In this document: positions 15,874-44,599 of the stretch, one piece after another
Layout: each line of letters opens with the position of its first letter
Position numbering within the stretch: position 1 is the first letter of the stretch
Assembly (NCBI GenBank): GCA_030425505.1
Contig: JAUIAB010000020.1
Span: forward strand, 1-56,588
Direction of reading: 5' to 3'
Source: Bacteroidia bacterium
Lineage (GTDB): Bacteria > Bacteroidota > Bacteroidia > Cytophagales > Flammeovirgaceae
DNA: 56,588 bases
Made by a program: the position numbers and the translations under genes
The notes under the pieces: generated by a model
Databases searched by the model: none
What the model saw: only the letters and a program-made list of their open reading frames with translations
What the model was told of the DNA's origin: nothing

Positions 15874-16461
15874 CTAGTGTAATGCAGGTTTTAGAGGTAG
15901 GTTTTTAAGTATTTCAGCTTCTTTACTTATTATTTCTTCCAGTCTGTTATATACCTCACTTTCATTAAAATACTTTAATGCCATTTTTACATAAATATCT
16001 CCGTGCTTTGCCTCAGAAACCCAGAGTATTTTGTAAAATTTTTTCATTTCTTCTTCTTGTATTGCTTCGCTAATTAGCCTGAACCTTTCACAACCTCTAC
16101 ATTCTACTACAGAAGCAACAAGTAGGCGATCTCTAAATCGTGTTTGCGGTGTTCCACCATGTGTCAACGATAGTAATTCTATTACATAGTTATCTTTTTC
16201 AATTTCTTTGGCCAAGCTTATTCCTCTTGATCTCATCAAATCATATACTTGTTTGAAATGATCCAATTCTTCTATAGAAGTTTCAATTAGCTGAGGAATG
16301 ATATCGTTTTTATCAGGGTATTTTGCAACTAAGCTTAAGGCCATTGCCGATGCTTTTCTTTCACAGTCTGCGTGATCTTGAAGGAATGCATCGAAGTCAT
16401 TTATAACTGTTTCTACCCATTCTTTTGACGAAGGTTCTATAAGATCTAATGAGTTTCTCAT
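15874..16461 (-). CDS. miaE: tRNA 2-methylthio-isopentenyladenosine hydroxylase-like protein (MiaE)
   Basis: Di-iron, ferritin-like enzyme that hydroxylates ms2i6A at position 37 of tRNAs. The helix motifs carrying iron ligands are visible: [53 protein letters not shown] and [12 protein letters not shown]. The length of 195 residues fits. It is followed 10 bp later by ung. Its ATG lies three bases after the end of a repeat (16465-16549) that has a second copy placed in the same way upstream of the lipoprotein gene at 24213. Confidence 0.9.
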
Positions 16462-16464
16462 CTA

Positions 16465-16549
16465 TTTAAAATTTGTGACTTGTCTAGTTTTTTGGCACAC
16501 AGCTTAATCATCTTTCTCTGTGTCTCCATTTTAGATCAGACACGGTCTG
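16465..16549 (-). repeat. Start-codon-proximal repeat, copy 1
   Basis: An 85-bp element with a close relative at 24217-24304 in the same orientation. Shared blocks on the minus strand: CAGAnCGnGTCTGAT at the distal end, TAAAATnGAG, GATTAAGnTGTGTGC, and GTCACAAATTTTAAA next to the downstream ATG. Inner arms can pair (GCACACAG with CTGTGTCT). It contains a 23-codon frame (from METQRKMIKLCAKK) that ends on the TGA overlapping the miaE ATG. Its far end supplies the stop and last codons of xseA. Confidence 0.7.
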
Positions 16550-17786
16550 TTTCTAGCTTGTCTATTATTTCTATTTTACTTGATATTTTAAATTTATCAC
16601 TTATTGTTATAAGTTTTTCATGGATACTTATACTATCAAGCTCGCTTATTGGGATGTTTTGAATAGTAGAATAGGTATACCCTTTCTCTAATAAGTTTTT
16701 TGGATCAAGTGTTTTAATAGTTTTTGATAAATAGTCAATTCTATTTTTTTCTTTATCAACTAACCTCAAAGCTAAACTCTTTGATTGAGTTAACTTATCG
16801 AAGATGTCTTTTTTTGAATTAGAAATGAAAACTTTAGATAAAATCAATATTTCATTCAGCTTTTGGGATATAGCTAACTTTTCCTTCACTAATTTTTGAC
16901 TTACCATATCTAATGCTTTGTCTAGTACGTTTTTACAGTTTGATTCAAAAAATAGTACTTTTTCTATTAGCCACTCCGCTACAGCTGTTGGTGTTTTCAA
17001 CGATTTAAAGGAAACTATATCAGATACGCTTTCATCTTTTAAATGACCTATTCCTGTAATTACTGGTAGCTCACAAAGAGCTATGGTTTTACTAAGTTCA
17101 TAATCATTAAATACATCTAGTTCAAATCTGGATCCACCTCCTCTTAGTATTACGATACAGTCGTAGTTATTATAATTTAGAGAGTTTATTTTGTGAATGA
17201 TGCTTTTTGCAGCTCTTTCTCCTTGCACAAAAACTGGATAAAGTTTTGTTGAGAAAGCATATCCGTAAATATTGCTATGGAGCTGATCCATAAAGTCTTC
17301 AAGCCCAGCAGCTGTTGGAGAAGATATGATTGCTATTCTCTGGAATACTAGTTTGGGGGTTAACTCTAACTGCTTTTTTAATAACCTTTCTTTTTCTAAT
17401 TTCTCTAGAGTCTCCTGCTTTTTTTTCTCTAGCTCGCCTAATGTGTATCTTATGTCTAGATCTCTTATTACTAAGGAAAGGCCATAAACTTCGTGAAATT
17501 GAATTGTTATTTTTATGAGTACTTTGCTGCCTACTTTTAGCACTTCATAAAATGCTTTTTCTAGCTTTTTCAGTAACTGTTCTGCTATATCATTCCAAAG
17601 TACAGCCTTAACTCTTGCCACTACAATATCTTCATCTCTTTGTACCAACTCCAGGTAATAATGATACCTATCTTGTAGATCCGCTATTTCTGCAGTTACC
17701 CAAATCTCTTTGTTAATCTTATCAAGATGGTTTTTTATGCTTTTCGTTAAACTATGTAAGGAATAGTACTTCATATATAATGTCAT
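16536..17786 (-). CDS. xseA: Exodeoxyribonuclease VII large subunit
   Basis: Catalytic large subunit of exonuclease VII, which degrades single-stranded DNA. N-terminal OB-fold (about 1-95, with NKEIWVTAEIADLQ), then the catalytic domain with RIAIISSPTAAGLEDF, CIVILRGGGSRFELDVFND, PVITGIGHLKDESVSDIVS and LKTPTAVAEWL, then a long coiled-coil region. About 416 residues from the ATG at 17786; ATG at 17774 (MKYYSLHS) is also possible, and a TTG at 17816 is less likely. The last residues (ETDRV) and stop lie inside the repeat at 16465-16549. The small-subunit gene xseB, often just downstream, is absent here. Confidence 0.92.
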   Translation of the reverse strand: MTLYMKYYSLHSLTKSIKNHLDKINKEIWVTAEIADLQDRYHYYLELVQRDEDIVVARVKAVLWNDIAEQLLKKLEKAFYEVLKVGSKVLIKITIQFHEVYGLSLVIRDLDIRYTLGELEKKKQETLEKLEKERLLKKQLELTPKLVFQRIAIISSPTAAGLEDFMDQLHSNIYGYAFSTKLYPVFVQGERAAKSIIHKINSLNYNNYDCIVILRGGGSRFELDVFNDYELSKTIALCELPVITGIGHLKDESVSDIVSFKSLKTPTAVAEWLIEKVLFFESNCKNVLDKALDMVSQKLVKEKLAISQKLNEILILSKVFISNSKKDIFDKLTQSKSLALRLVDKEKNRIDYLSKTIKTLDPKNLLEKGYTYSTIQNIPISELDSISIHEKLITISDKFKISSKIEIIDKLETDRV

Positions 17787-19338: not shown

Positions 19339-20886
19339 TTACCCAGCAAAAGCAAAAAACACTAACCAAATTACTAACAATACTGGTAAAAGTATTGGTA
19401 TGGAGTATTTTATTATGTAGGCAAAAAAGGAGGGCATTTCTATACCTATTTGCTCTGCAATAGATTTCACCATAAAGTTGGGGCCATTTCCTATGTAGGT
19501 CATTGCCCCAAAAAATACTGCAGATACTGAGATAGCAACTAGTTGCAGGACGGAGTCTAAGTATATTGGGGATCCATAAGCAAAATCTACTACATTGCTA
19601 ACTTTATTAATATCACCACCTTGTGAAGAAATGGCTGCGGTAAAAAAGTTTAAATAGGTAGGAGCATTATCTAAAAAACCAGAGAGAAGACCAGTACCCC
19701 AATACAATGTATCATGATTTATTAAGCTTTTTCCTGTAGGAGAGGCTGCAAAAGCTGCAACCAGTTCTAATGCGGGCATCATTGTTCCAAAAATACCTAT
19801 GAAGATGAAAGCAACTTCTTTAATGGGAGCAAAGTTGAATTCATTTCCTCTTAATGCTGTTTGATTTGCTGTTTTGTAAGAAAGAATAGCGATTGTAAGC
19901 ATTATTATTTCTCTTATAAAGGAAAAGACTGTTGCTCCTTCTTTTTCAATACTTGTTAGCCCGTTGAGGGTATTTATTGAGAAGTTACCATCAGCTGTTT
20001 GTATAATAGCTGGAAACCATGATATTTTGCCAGGATCAAGAAATACTGCTAGAATTACAATAAATAGCCACAAGAAATTCTTGCCCCCTTTCATGCTTAC
20101 TCTATTTGTTCTCTCCCTATACTCTTCCATAAAAAGAGGGTTGAGTTTGCCCATCTTTTTATCGTAGAAGTAAAATATGATACAAAATAAGCCAATTGCT
20201 AATAGCCATGGAAAAAAGTTGTGTGTAATTGTCCAAGTAAATGGAACTCCTTTCAAAAAGCCAAGAAACAATGGTGGGTCTCCTATTGGTGTTAAACAAC
20301 CACCGATATTACTTACCATCATTATGAAAAAGACAATATGATAAGGTTGGATTCTCTTTTTATTCAGCCTAATAAATGGTCTGATCAATAGCATTGATGC
20401 TCCAGTAGTTCCAATGATGTTGGCAATTATTGCTCCTGCAAATAGTAGTATTGTATTGAGTAAAGGTTTTCCATCTTTATCAATATCTATCATTATACCT
20501 CCTGAAGCAACGTAAAGTGCTGTTAGTAAGGAAATAAACTGGAGGTACTCAAAAAAAGCATGTATAGGACTGTGTGTGTTATCTAGGAAAAAGATGTAGT
20601 ACAGAATAACTATTGTAGCAAGCGATATGGCTATTTTGGGATAGTTTTTATGCCAGAAGTGCTCGTAAAATAGCGGCCCAGAAGCAATCATTATCAATAA
20701 TAAAAAGAAAGGGATTACAGAATAGGGAGATGCTGCATGCCCATGTTCTGAGTGTTCTTCATCAATAGGCTCTGTGTAGGCCACTTCTTGTTTATTGTCT
20801 TCAATGTTATTGTTGCTTGCAAGACTTGTAATGCTAGTTAAGGCTATTATTAGCGGTATGATTAAAAGCTTGACTTGTCGAAGCAT
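19339..20886 (-). CDS. Sodium:proton antiporter / ion transporter-superfamily permease
   Basis: About 515 residues with an N-terminal hydrophobic segment and roughly eleven membrane helices. A His-rich stretch (EEHSEHGHA) follows the first helix. Signature loops MMVSNIGGCLTPIGDPPLFLGF and SGFLDNAPTYLNFF resemble the paired P-loop/Asn motifs of the NhaD/CitMHS (ion transporter) superfamily, and Bacteroidota homologues are usually annotated as sodium:proton antiporters. ATG at 20886 is preferred; a TTG lies at 20904. Substrate is inferred only. It pairs with the DUF218 gene 14 bp downstream. A true NhaD is encoded at 24950-26221. Confidence 0.82.
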   Translation of the reverse strand: MLRQVKLLIIPLIIALTSITSLASNNNIEDNKQEVAYTEPIDEEHSEHGHAASPYSVIPFFLLLIMIASGPLFYEHFWHKNYPKIAISLATIVILYYIFFLDNTHSPIHAFFEYLQFISLLTALYVASGGIMIDIDKDGKPLLNTILLFAGAIIANIIGTTGASMLLIRPFIRLNKKRIQPYHIVFFIMMVSNIGGCLTPIGDPPLFLGFLKGVPFTWTITHNFFPWLLAIGLFCIIFYFYDKKMGKLNPLFMEEYRERTNRVSMKGGKNFLWLFIVILAVFLDPGKISWFPAIIQTADGNFSINTLNGLTSIEKEGATVFSFIREIIMLTIAILSYKTANQTALRGNEFNFAPIKEVAFIFIGIFGTMMPALELVAAFAASPTGKSLINHDTLYWGTGLLSGFLDNAPTYLNFFTAAISSQGGDINKVSNVVDFAYGSPIYLDSVLQLVAISVSAVFFGAMTYIGNGPNFMVKSIAEQIGIEMPSFFAYIIKYSIPILLPVLLVIWLVFFAFAG

Positions 20887-23748: not shown

Positions 23749-24213
23749 TTACTCTTTAAAAAAATCATGCGATAATCTTTTTTCTATTGTTCTACCTCTA
23801 AGGTCTATTTCAATATCTATCATTATACTCCAAGTAGAAGAATCTATTTTTGTGCCTTTTACTACTCCTTTATCCACTTGGATACTCTGTGTGTTTTCAC
23901 AATAGCAAATTTGTCTGTATAGGCAGTTTGTCTCGTTTATTTTATCATCTTTTACCTCAAACTCAGATAAACTAGGGTCTATCTCAAATAAAATTTTTTC
24001 TGTAAACCCTGAGTCATCGACATCAGGTTCTGAAGGTATTTTAAATACGTATTCAAATACTAGGTTATCTCCGCTTTCAATTTTTATTTCTGTGGAATTA
24101 TTTTGAATCCTGGAATCAGAATAAATCTTAAAGCTAGATGAATGCTTTTCTACAGGACTATTGTTGTCCGAGCAGCTAGAAAAAAGGATTAGAAGTAAAA
24201 ACAGATTTCTCAT
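23749..24213 (-). CDS. Putative lipoprotein, unknown function
   Basis: From the ATG at 24211-24213 the protein has 154 residues. A short lipoprotein signal (MRNLFLLLILFSSCS) ends in a Cys suited to lipidation. The mature part is beta-rich, acidic, with four further Cys (NCLYRQICYC region) that may form disulfides. No family is recognised. The upstream frame to 24264 runs in phase through the repeat at 24217-24304 and is not part of the protein. The gene lies 60 bp upstream of lpxB. Confidence 0.7.
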   Translation of the reverse strand: MRNLFLLLILFSSCSDNNSPVEKHSSSFKIYSDSRIQNNSTEIKIESGDNLVFEYVFKIPSEPDVDDSGFTEKILFEIDPSLSEFEVKDDKINETNCLYRQICYCENTQSIQVDKGVVKGTKIDSSTWSIMIDIEIDLRGRTIEKRLSHDFFKE

Positions 24214-41213: not shown

Positions 41214-41771
41214 ATGTGTCGATATGCAACACCATATAAGCAGCATTATACTTGTTTTTCGTGTAGGAAAACGTTTAAACGAAGACTTCTGGTAGATATT
41301 GATAGAGATATGGCATATGGTAAAACGAAAGATACCATTCCAGCCAAATGCCCTGAATGTGGCAATCTTATGGCTAATATGGGCTTAGATTTTGAGTCAC
41401 CAAAGAAAAAAGACGAGAAGGCGTGGAGTCATATGAAAAACTTATACACGTCAGGGGTAACATATCATTCTTGTGGATGTACCGGACCAGGCTATATCCC
41501 GAAAGACAAAGAAGCTCTAATACAGTTTTTAATTAACAAACAGAACGATTTCATCAAACAGAAAAAGTTTTGGCTTTCAAAAGCTTCTCCTGAAAGCAAA
41601 AGTGAACAGTTAAAAGACTATAATAAAAACTTTAACTTCTATTATCGTATACCCAGAGTTCTAAGAAAAGGGAAAAAGAAAAGATTGGTAGAAAAAGAGG
41701 AGGCTATAAAATACTGGGAAGAAAAAATCGTAGATATTGGGTTAAAAATTGAAAGGCTTAAGAGTTATTAG
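41214..41771 (+). CDS. Zinc-ribbon protein, unknown
   Basis: 185 residues with several Cys pairs: CFSCRKTFKRRL, CPECGNLMANMGLDFE and SCGCTGPGYIP, suggesting one or two zinc ribbons, followed by a Lys-rich helical half. Known only as a conserved hypothetical in Bacteroidota. The C terminus reads IERLKSY; its last 17 coding bases are part of a direct repeat whose second copy lies just before aroK (44583-44599). It converges on the TonB receptor gene. Confidence 0.7.
   Translation: MCRYATPYKQHYTCFSCRKTFKRRLLVDIDRDMAYGKTKDTIPAKCPECGNLMANMGLDFESPKKKDEKAWSHMKNLYTSGVTYHSCGCTGPGYIPKDKEALIQFLINKQNDFIKQKKFWLSKASPESKSEQLKDYNKNFNFYYRIPRVLRKGKKKRLVEKEEAIKYWEEKIVDIGLKIERLKSY
41751..41767 (+). repeat. 17-bp direct repeat, left copy (flanks TonB receptor)
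   Basis: GAAAGGCTTAAGAGTTA at the end of the zinc-ribbon gene is repeated exactly at 44583-44599, directly upstream of aroK. The 2.8 kb between the copies holds only the inverted TonB receptor gene and its terminator. Confidence 0.75.
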
Positions 41772-41814
41772 AAATCAAATTCTCTGTTCAGTTTTTAAAT
41801 ATTTTCAGTATAGA

Positions 41815-41850
41815 AAAACCTCTCCACAATTTCTTTCATGAAGAGGTTTT
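41815..41850. terminator. Bidirectional terminator between zinc-ribbon and TonB receptor genes
   Basis: AAAACCTCT 41815-41823 pairs with AGAGGTTTT 41842-41850. The stem ends in A/T runs on both sides, so it can stop transcripts of the two convergent genes. Confidence 0.65.
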
Positions 41851-41872
41851 AAGTAGTTAGAGATAAAAGTTT

Positions 41873-44518
41873 TTAAAACCTTATATTCAACTTACCTTGA
41901 ATCATAGTTCCATTGAAACCAAACTGATTAACTTCCCAAGGGTACTTGAACCTGCCTCCAAGATTAGTCAATGCATCTCCTTTAGTATCAATTTCATCAG
42001 GGTAAATATCAAGTAAGTTATTTACGTACAGGCCTAAACCTATGGTATCACTAAACCTGTAATGAAGGTTAAGATCTGTAATTATTTTAGCAGAAAAAGT
42101 TTGGTCTCCATCAATAACTGTTCCTGCATTAAACCCATTTTCTGGAGCTCTAATTACCTGAGCTGGATGCCTCCAAGTAACCTCTCCAAACCTAGTGTTA
42201 TTAATTACCGCTTTAAACTTTCCAATTTCATAAGCAAGCCCAAGTATAATCTTGCTGTTTGGTCTAGCTGTTTCTAGTCTTGACTGCTCCAACCTATCAA
42301 AAATCTCAATACCTGTAGCACGAATTGGTGCAGGAGTATCAACAGCACCATCTATTTCCGTTTTATTAAAGTTAGCAGCTAGAGATACAGATAAACTTCC
42401 TGTTCCAAGGTCAGCATCATAACTACCAACAAAATCAACACCAGATGTTTTGGTATTTACTGCATTAGCAAAGAACTTCAAACTTGTAACACTATACCTA
42501 TCTAAAACTCGCCCAACTGGAGTGTCCACATCATCAGTAGCGATACTACTGGAGTAAACAACCCTATCATCAACAACTATGTTGTAGTAGTCTAATGAAA
42601 AATAGAGGCTAGAAGTTGGTTTTACAGCTACACCAGCAGTGAAGTTAAAAGAGTTTTCTTCTTTAAGAGAAGGTACTTCAAGAGCTCTAATAGCAGGGTT
42701 TTCATTATTGAAAGTACCTTGGTTAGAAACACTATTACCTGAAACTAAAGTTTGAATAATACTTAAGTATCTTTGATGTAGAGAGGGAGCTCTAAACCCC
42801 GTAGAAGCAGATGCTCTAAGTGAAAGCTTATCTTCCAAGAACTTATATCTGGCATTTGCTTTCCAGGTAAAGTTATTTCCAAAGTCACTATAGTTTTCAA
42901 ATCGAGCAGCAGCACCTAAGAGAAAATCGTCTGTAATATCAAAAACTATATCTGTATAAGCTCCGATATTATATCTAAAAGCATTCACTTCATTTCTAGG
43001 CTGAATTCCAGGGAAAGATTGTGTGCCGCCACCTATATAAGATGCTTCTTCTCCAGAGTTAGCTATAAAATTTTCATTCCTGAACTCTGTACCAAAAGAC
43101 CATGTCAGTTTATCAAAAAAAGTCTTAGCAATATCTATGTTAGTCACTACATGTTTAAACTCATAACCTCCTGGTCTAAAACTGGTAGGGCTTTCTGCTC
43201 CCATATCTGGGTTAATAGAGTTGTTGACAGTATAGTCTACTTTATTTCCTCCAAGGCTGGCACTTACATCGTATTTCCAATTATTCTTTTCTCCTCTAAC
43301 ACCAAAGGCAAGTGTATTATCTAAAATATCTGTCTCAAAAGTGGGCTGAAAGCCTTCATAGTTACTTCCTTCAGAATGAATTAGGTTAAAAGGATCAGGC
43401 ACCCAATATGGAGTTCTGTATAAAGCATAACTTTTTCCTTTCCTTACGGTCAAACCCCCAAAGCCATAAAATTCAGCTTTTCCTTCTGCTATTGGCACAC
43501 TTCCATTAAAAAAAACATCTGCCATAGTCATATTAGGCAAACCTACCCGCATTCCAAGAGAAGGGTTATTTTGTATCCAAGCATTGTCAGAACCAACACC
43601 AAGCAGGTCATCTCTTCCAGGCTCTCCAGCTCTATTTGTTTCTTTCTGATCTAAAAAAGAAGTGCTTATATTCAAAAAGCCTCCTTTACCAACTTTAAAA
43701 CCTGTATTAATATCATAACCAATATTAAACCCATCTCCCTCCAAAGCTCCACCTGAAAACAAATTAATGTCTGTATAATCATAAGAATCTTTTAAAATGA
43801 CATTGATAACACCAGCAATTGCATCAGATCCGTACATTGCAGAGGCTCCGTCTCTTAACACTTCTATTCTCTTAATTGCAGCTGCAGGAATGCTTTTCAT
43901 ATCTACACCAACCTCTCCTTTACCAGGAGTATCATTAATAAATACTAACGAGCTTGGGTTTTTTCTTTTACCATTGATCAAGACTAGTGTTCTACTTGGT
44001 CCTAAACCTCTCAAGTCTGCTGGGTCAAAGTGGGCTGTTGCATCCGAAATAGTTTGCTGAGTAGAGTTAAAAGAAGGGACTTTATACATTAGCATTTTAT
44101 CCATCGTAATTCTACCTGATAGGGTTAATTCCTCAGCAGAGATATTATCTATTGGTACAGGACTGGTAATGGAAGTCCTAGGAACAAACCGTGAACCAAC
44201 CACTGTAACTTCTGAAAGCTCTGTCCAAGAGCTCAACATTATTTCTAAAAAATCTTCGTTTTCTACTTGTACTTCTTTTGTTTGATAGCCAACATAGCTA
44301 ATAGATAAGGTTGTAGGTAACTCATCTACTAAAAAATTAAAAGAGCCTTCTAAATCGGTACTAGTCCCTTTTTGAGTTCCTTTTACAACTATAGAAGCAT
44401 TTACCAAAGGTGAACTACCACTAGCATCTTTAACCTTCCCTTTGATACTAATATCTTGGGAGTTTGCCTGTTGAAAAAACAAAAAGCAAACAGTTAACAA
44501 CAAGTAAATCTTTTTCAT
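41873..44518 (-). CDS. TonB-dependent outer-membrane receptor
   Basis: 881 residues. Signal peptide MKKIYLLLTVCFLFFQQANS; a carboxypeptidase-regulatory-like domain (about 22-105: ISIKGKVKDASGSSPLVNAS, LSISYVGYQTKEVQV); plug domain (about 110-235: DLRGLGPSRTLVLINGKR, AIKRIEVLRDGASAMYGSDA, IAGVINVILK); then a 22-strand-type barrel ending in the C-terminal Phe (GKLNIRF). This is the single-gene receptor type without a SusD partner, so iron chelators, peptides or small sugars are more likely ligands than polysaccharide. It lies between 17-bp direct repeats and opposite in direction to both neighbours, which suggests later insertion. Confidence 0.93.
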   Translation of the reverse strand: MKKIYLLLTVCFLFFQQANSQDISIKGKVKDASGSSPLVNASIVVKGTQKGTSTDLEGSFNFLVDELPTTLSISYVGYQTKEVQVENEDFLEIMLSSWTELSEVTVVGSRFVPRTSITSPVPIDNISAEELTLSGRITMDKMLMYKVPSFNSTQQTISDATAHFDPADLRGLGPSRTLVLINGKRKNPSSLVFINDTPGKGEVGVDMKSIPAAAIKRIEVLRDGASAMYGSDAIAGVINVILKDSYDYTDINLFSGGALEGDGFNIGYDINTGFKVGKGGFLNISTSFLDQKETNRAGEPGRDDLLGVGSDNAWIQNNPSLGMRVGLPNMTMADVFFNGSVPIAEGKAEFYGFGGLTVRKGKSYALYRTPYWVPDPFNLIHSEGSNYEGFQPTFETDILDNTLAFGVRGEKNNWKYDVSASLGGNKVDYTVNNSINPDMGAESPTSFRPGGYEFKHVVTNIDIAKTFFDKLTWSFGTEFRNENFIANSGEEASYIGGGTQSFPGIQPRNEVNAFRYNIGAYTDIVFDITDDFLLGAAARFENYSDFGNNFTWKANARYKFLEDKLSLRASASTGFRAPSLHQRYLSIIQTLVSGNSVSNQGTFNNENPAIRALEVPSLKEENSFNFTAGVAVKPTSSLYFSLDYYNIVVDDRVVYSSSIATDDVDTPVGRVLDRYSVTSLKFFANAVNTKTSGVDFVGSYDADLGTGSLSVSLAANFNKTEIDGAVDTPAPIRATGIEIFDRLEQSRLETARPNSKIILGLAYEIGKFKAVINNTRFGEVTWRHPAQVIRAPENGFNAGTVIDGDQTFSAKIITDLNLHYRFSDTIGLGLYVNNLLDIYPDEIDTKGDALTNLGGRFKYPWEVNQFGFNGTMIQGKLNIRF

Positions 44519-44582
44519 ATATTCTATTTATTAAAAAATTAAAAGTTAAAGTTAAAGAAATTAATTTACACATAGTTATATA

Positions 44583-44599
44583 GAAAGGCTTAAGAGTTA
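44583..44599 (+). repeat. 17-bp direct repeat, right copy (flanks TonB receptor)
   Basis: Exact copy of 41751-41767. Read in the frame of the zinc-ribbon gene it continues to a TAA (AGT TAA), two bases before the aroK ATG at 44602, so this side looks like the original gene junction. Confidence 0.75.

Follow-up and report, generated by a model that had tools for sequence, protein, structure and literature searches.

A gene for a TonB-dependent receptor lies between a gene for a zinc-ribbon-like protein and aroK, the shikimate kinase gene, in the 56,588-nt stretch of DNA analysed here (contig JAUIAB010000020.1 from a Bacteroidia bacterium of the Flammeovirgaceae; hereafter, the window). The receptor gene is inverted relative to both of these neighbours and is bracketed by two exact copies of a 17-bp word, GAAAGGCTTAAGAGTTA, which stand in the same orientation (Table 1). 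The first-pass annotation of the window had described this repeat and had seen a single inverted receptor gene between its copies. The coordinates of both copies were confirmed, as was the presence of only one clear gene between them; three antisense open reading frames (ORFs) of 71, 101 and 87 amino acids (aa) inside the receptor gene were judged spurious and were left out of the domain scan.

Table 1. Genes and repeat copies at the zinc-ribbon/aroK locus, in window coordinates
Feature	Position	Strand	Remarks
Zinc-ribbon-like protein gene, 185 aa	41214..41771	+	ORF; CxxC pairs; no Pfam match
Left 17-bp copy	41751..41767	+	zinc-ribbon 3' codons: E-R-L-K-S and two bases of the next codon
TonB-dependent receptor gene, 881 aa	41873..44518	-	predicted CarboxypepD_reg-like, plug and beta-barrel domains
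Right 17-bp copy	44583..44599	+	ends 2 bp before the aroK ATG
aroK, shikimate kinase, 168 aa	44602..45108	+	PF01202, E 3.4e-46

A direct repeat of at least 11 bp is thus present at both presumed boundaries of the enclosed segment, its copies being 17/17 identical and flush with the outer genes. Inclusion of three further bases on the left extends the match to 19 of 20 nt, with one mismatch. No third copy with at most one mismatch was found in the 2,951,408 bases of the organism's own genome. Read with the left copy, the C-terminus of the zinc-ribbon protein is I-E-R-L-K-S-Y-stop; the right copy sits within the 83-bp gap that separates the receptor start from aroK. When the frame is joined across the repeat by eye, it stops at AGT TAA, and a single base then separates this stop from the aroK ATG. 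This is the ending that the first-pass annotation had given; the two bases that it counted between this stop and the ATG are in fact those that follow the repeat.

Relatives of the zinc-ribbon protein, 38-57% identical over most of its length, were found in nine other genomes. The C-terminal stretch encoded by the left copy aligns with these homologues, the motif I-E-x-x-K being exact in two of the nine and the helix end similar in the rest. Since three of the nine terminate directly after the K of this motif, an end at ...LKS-stop in the joined frame is a natural one. We also asked the stop positions of the homologues which copy was the original, and found them uninformative, as they lie at the K, two residues beyond it, or further. 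A terminator 3' of the zinc-ribbon gene, considered as a relic of an older arrangement, was rejected: the hairpin at 41815-41850 is no better than shuffled sequence (z of -1.28 for the fold of 41800-41870, with 23 of 200 shuffles equally good), and a terminator scan found no terminator-like site.

The receptor is predicted to have a plug and a beta-barrel (PF07715 and PF00593, both above cut-off) in addition to the CarboxypepD_reg-like domain, and its role would be the usual one in TonB-driven import. No NCBIfam model scored above its cut-off for this protein, and a score of 117.7 bits with TIGR04056, against a cut-off of 368.25, leaves it outside SusC/RagA. In comparisons with solved structures, the best stretches fall in the plug or the N-terminal domain.

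Placement of the repeat pair

The unusual feature of the repeat pair is its placement and not its length. We collected unique direct-repeat pairs, 0.3-6 kb apart, from a 993,597-base sample of the same genome and obtained 15 pairs of at least 16 bp (vs. 2-13 in simulations, mean 8.5). Pairs of at least 17 bp numbered eight in the sample (vs. 0-5 in simulations, mean 2.3). In these comparisons, simple and multi-copy words, pairs with similar flanks and pairs within a gene were removed from the real set, whereas the 12 Markov simulations were unfiltered for simple and multi-copy words; genes were called by a longest-ORF script rather than by a trained gene finder.

Only one of the 15 pairs, that at 41751/44583, has a gene edge no more than 5 bp away on each side and exactly one gene between its copies. 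The other pair that is flush on both sides (C33, 113934/119777) is part of a dispersed repeat and encloses seven genes. Random placement gave pairs flush at both edges in 588 of 400,000 trials, flush pairs enclosing one gene in 122, and a single enclosed gene inverted to both of its neighbours in only 3. By this measure, the expected number of one-gene flush pairs among 15 is about 0.005.

The same genome also shows an excess of exact words common to gene 3' ends and 5' leaders over those common to random segments, from 2.2-fold at 8 bp to about 6-fold at 15 bp, the latter figure resting on counts of 6 and 1. Uniform placement therefore understates chance. Among 760 x 760 (577,600) pairs of gene ends and starts, 34, 15, 6, 4 and 1 matches were of at least 13, 14, 15, 16 and 17 bp, respectively, and the sole match of at least 17 bp is the zinc-ribbon/aroK pair. 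That this match falls on genes one gene apart is not expected.

Past insertion or coincidence

Our tentative reading, to which we would give just under an even chance and which is marginally likelier than coincidence, is that the repeat is the static footprint of a past short-homology insertion. The zinc-ribbon gene and aroK would once have been close neighbours, with the last zinc-ribbon codons just before the aroK start. A 2.8-kb fragment carrying one receptor gene would then have entered this junction by illegitimate recombination, through short homology or break repair, and 17-20 bp of the target would have been duplicated in the process. The placement of the repeat fits an insertion with a duplication of this size. 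No enzyme in the segment would have made the presumed insertion, and the locus would now behave as ordinary chromosome. The segment may, at low frequency, be lost through slippage between the copies, independently of RecA; an island that can be lost by recombination, as the first-pass annotation had suggested, is chemically possible for any such pair of repeats.

Our slight tilt towards a past insertion is due to the low random rate of such exact placement and to the fact that variable segments flanked by short repeats are common in the species studied. In a survey of small variable segments in Escherichia coli, Staphylococcus aureus and Streptococcus pyogenes, 10-18% of these had direct repeats of 5 bp or more at their flanks, for the most part shorter than 30 bp (PMC2884548). 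As described there, such segments are similar to ours in being short, in lying between neighbouring genes, in having a direct repeat of less than 30 bp and in carrying no mobility gene; they differ in being defined by strain differences within one species, whereas here we have a single genome. The weights given to the two principal readings are a matter of judgement.

Coincidence, the second of these readings, has in our estimate somewhat less than an even chance. It supposes that an AT-rich 17-base word happens to be common to the 3' end of one gene and the leader of another two genes further on, in a gene order made by ordinary rearrangement. What stands against it is the placement described above, since the only 17-mer shared by a gene end and a gene start has just one gene between its copies, each of which abuts a neighbour of that gene. 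A number of results, taken up in the rest of this section, weigh against an insertion, and those on length, shared words, junctions and codon usage speak for coincidence.

By its length alone, the repeat is unremarkable and within chance. Of 100 order-3 Markov windows, 13 contained one or more pairs of 17 bp or longer with copies no more than 5 kb apart (52 for pairs at any distance). In the real window, four pairs reach this length, and two of these have their copies within 5 kb of each other. A longer exact direct repeat, of 19 bp, occurs in the same window at 20480-20498 and 23810-23828, 3.3 kb apart; its placement is not cassette-like and it marks no cassette. As seen above, the sharing of words between gene ends and starts exceeds that in random DNA by a factor of about 2-6, and one 17-mer match somewhere in the 577,600 comparisons is about what is expected from the trend of the shorter words.

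Controls based on gene junctions point the same way. Pairs of junctions around one gene (n = 750) gave two unique matches of 17 bp or longer and five of 14 bp or longer, the second of the two longer matches belonging to a longer degenerate repeat. Junctions 8-119 genes apart (n = 45,528, unique words) predict 0.066 and 0.73 such matches, respectively, and junctions 8-39 genes apart (n = 18,960, all words) predict 0.63 matches of at least 17 bp. At junctions 2-7 genes apart, three unique matches of at least 17 bp were seen among 4,353, or about 0.5 per 750 neighbouring pairs; all three are 25-33 bp long and are perhaps of another origin. Under the strictest of these controls, about 0.07 matches per sample are expected by chance and, by scaling, about 0.2 per genome. 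We considered whether the excess of repeats at neighbouring junctions (2 vs. 0.066) reflects a process specific to single genes, and rejected this because of the degenerate repeat in the second case and the three matches at junctions 2-7 genes apart.

In composition, too, the receptor gene is typical of the genome. When 368 genes of 900 bp or more are ranked by the distance of their codon usage from the genome average, it stands at the 8th percentile, on a scale where long genes score low through smaller sampling noise. Its GC content is 0.366 (vs. 0.341 for the sample), and its GC content at third codon positions is at the 25th percentile. A foreign origin by composition was rejected on these grounds. 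A gene newly arrived from a distant donor would look atypical, but the perfect 17/17 match would make the event a recent one; typical codon usage and an intact match are together compatible only with a donor of similar composition, such as another strain.

The best relative of the receptor, 58% identical, is encoded in G081, a genome from a different family within the order. Within its own family, identity reaches about 41% at most among the matches listed, with one split match at 43%; the order-level comparison scored two candidates per genome and counted only matches with E <= 1e-150. This patchy spread, as judged from the protein comparisons, fits acquisition, but would fit differential loss too. 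A search of viral contigs as a source of host DNA gave no match.

Nothing shows active mobility of the segment. Neither a transposase nor an integrase domain was detected in the receptor, zinc-ribbon or aroK proteins, the receptor has no site-specific recombinase domain, and the window contains no transfer RNA gene. Terminal inverted repeats were likewise lacking: the ends of 41768-44582 are not linked by any inverted pair, and the closest candidate, of 14 nt at 41628-41641/44540-44553, has its left arm outside the segment, inside the zinc-ribbon gene.

Finally, we compared the locus with those of relatives, none of the genomes searched being another of the same genus. Within the family (18 genomes, including this one), a full-length zinc-ribbon gene is present in one other genome and aroK in all 17 others, at 38-49% identity. 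The zinc-ribbon family was found in 17 of 291 genomes of the order (E <= 0.001) and in 4 of 395 genomes drawn from the class (E <= 1e-40), our genome being counted in both cases. The first-pass annotation had expected the zinc-ribbon gene and aroK to be adjacent in strains lacking the receptor, and had held that a pair never found adjacent would refute its reading. At none of nine zinc-ribbon loci was the gene beside aroK (flanks of up to about 8 kb, one of 11 kb), although contig ends cut some of these loci, leaving L126 with 0.5 kb on one side and L129 with about 2 kb. In G257, a single contig carries both genes, separated by about 21 kb. Neither a zinc ribbon nor a receptor was near aroK in any of the 17 other family genomes (13 loci with flanks of about 5-9 kb, four with 1.5 kb only).

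The receptor loci gave a similar picture. In G081, the gene for the 58%-identical receptor is on a different contig from the zinc ribbon and aroK, and neither outer gene was seen at 11 receptor loci with flanks of about 3-9 kb. A scan of genome contigs for the aroK gene alone yielded 15 loci, at most 45% identical and from distant relatives only. In the comparisons of flanks, neighbours were assigned to window ORFs by BLASTP, from the best match only. Because the relatives are distant and few other neighbours recur around aroK, these absences are weak evidence; the expected adjacency was not seen, and its absence refutes little where so little gene order is shared. The genomes compared cannot decide between insertion and coincidence. 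In one of them, G285 (L124:2803-8534), a TonB receptor of broadly similar type is found about 2 kb away from a zinc-ribbon homologue, the two being separated by what resemble a sigma factor and an anti-sigma factor; the order and orientation differ from those in the window, and we took this arrangement to be unrelated.

The pattern is either coincidence or of an ordinary, already described kind. A past insertion, if true, would be one more case of single-gene gain by short-homology recombination with a scar at a tight gene junction, in a gene class, the outer-membrane receptors, that determines the nutrients available to a cell. If the repeat is coincidental, it illustrates that in AT-rich genomes a test of length is not enough for an exact 17-base repeat, and that its placement must be tested as well.

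Less probable explanations

It is improbable that the segment is a mobile single-gene cassette, in which the repeats would be attachment sites or short homologies and the receptor would be gained and lost in the living population by means of host enzymes. The nearest precedent is the H47 island of E. coli, which has no recombinase of its own and excises without RecA, and is flanked by imperfect direct repeats with perfect blocks of 13, 11, 20 and 17 bp (PMC5426353). The likeness to our segment lies in these perfect blocks of 11-20 bp and in the lack of an own recombinase. However, H47 is 13 kb long with repeats of 144-148 bp, and its excision was detected by polymerase chain reaction, being too rare to see in vivo (PMC5426353); ours is a 2.8-kb segment with one 17-bp block, known from its sequence. 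This block has no further copies in the genome, no similar cassette was seen in the 0.99 Mb sampled, and no recombinase domain was found in any of the three proteins of the locus.

We give equally little credence to the idea that the zinc-ribbon/aroK junction is a live exchange site, where single receptor genes would come and go through a 17-20 bp word, no recombinase being encoded, so that cells of one population would differ in the receptor carried. The minimal mobile elements of Neisseria undergo exchange through their flanking genes. As described in PMC3898611, they too consist of whole genes between two genes and have no mobility functions, but they are defined by different whole-gene cassettes between conserved genes across strains, whereas our case comes from one genome.

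Least probable of all is that selection has kept a shared functional site, for example one for a regulator or for processing, at both places, or that the repeat marks a join made in assembly. Both copies do lie at gene edges, but the genome has no additional copy with one mismatch or fewer, promoter-like matches are at background (9 vs. a mean of 9.3), no terminator-like site was found, and the left copy is coding, with its residues accounted for by the protein. To our knowledge, assemblers do not join contigs on 17-base overlaps, which counts against an assembly join.

Other repeats in the genome

A dispersed intergenic repeat of about 95 bp, one copy of which is in the window (16455-16560, - strand), seems more interesting than the 17-bp pair. 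It occurs in many places in the genome (e.g. L174:10190-10330), and its core, AGACAGGTCACAAATTTTAAA, has 83 genome matches at up to three mismatches, compared to three for a reversed control. More than half of the copies sampled (18 of 32) end within 3 bp of a downstream start codon or read into it (...TTTTAAACAnATGAAA), and some copies are in tandem, 95-97 bp apart. A search of the other 17 genomes of the family did not find the repeat, and Rfam gave no match for the window, with its one copy. When the RNA fold of 13 copies was compared, both-sided change was seen in only one of 11 pairs. The repeat could be an element resembling a miniature inverted-repeat transposable element that supplies leaders and start codons, or else a shared regulatory leader.

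Three further repeat regions were noted in passing, all on contigs of G000. An array like those of clustered regularly interspaced short palindromic repeats (CRISPR), at L100:15438-16682 (contig C19), has at least 17 copies of a 46-bp repeat (GTTGTG...CACAAC), the last of them partial, with a period of about 76 bp. A repeat array with a period of about 369 bp lies at L094:4894-6700 (contig C7), and a direct repeat with a period of 798 bp at L110:1-1300, the start of contig C39; both have long identical stretches.

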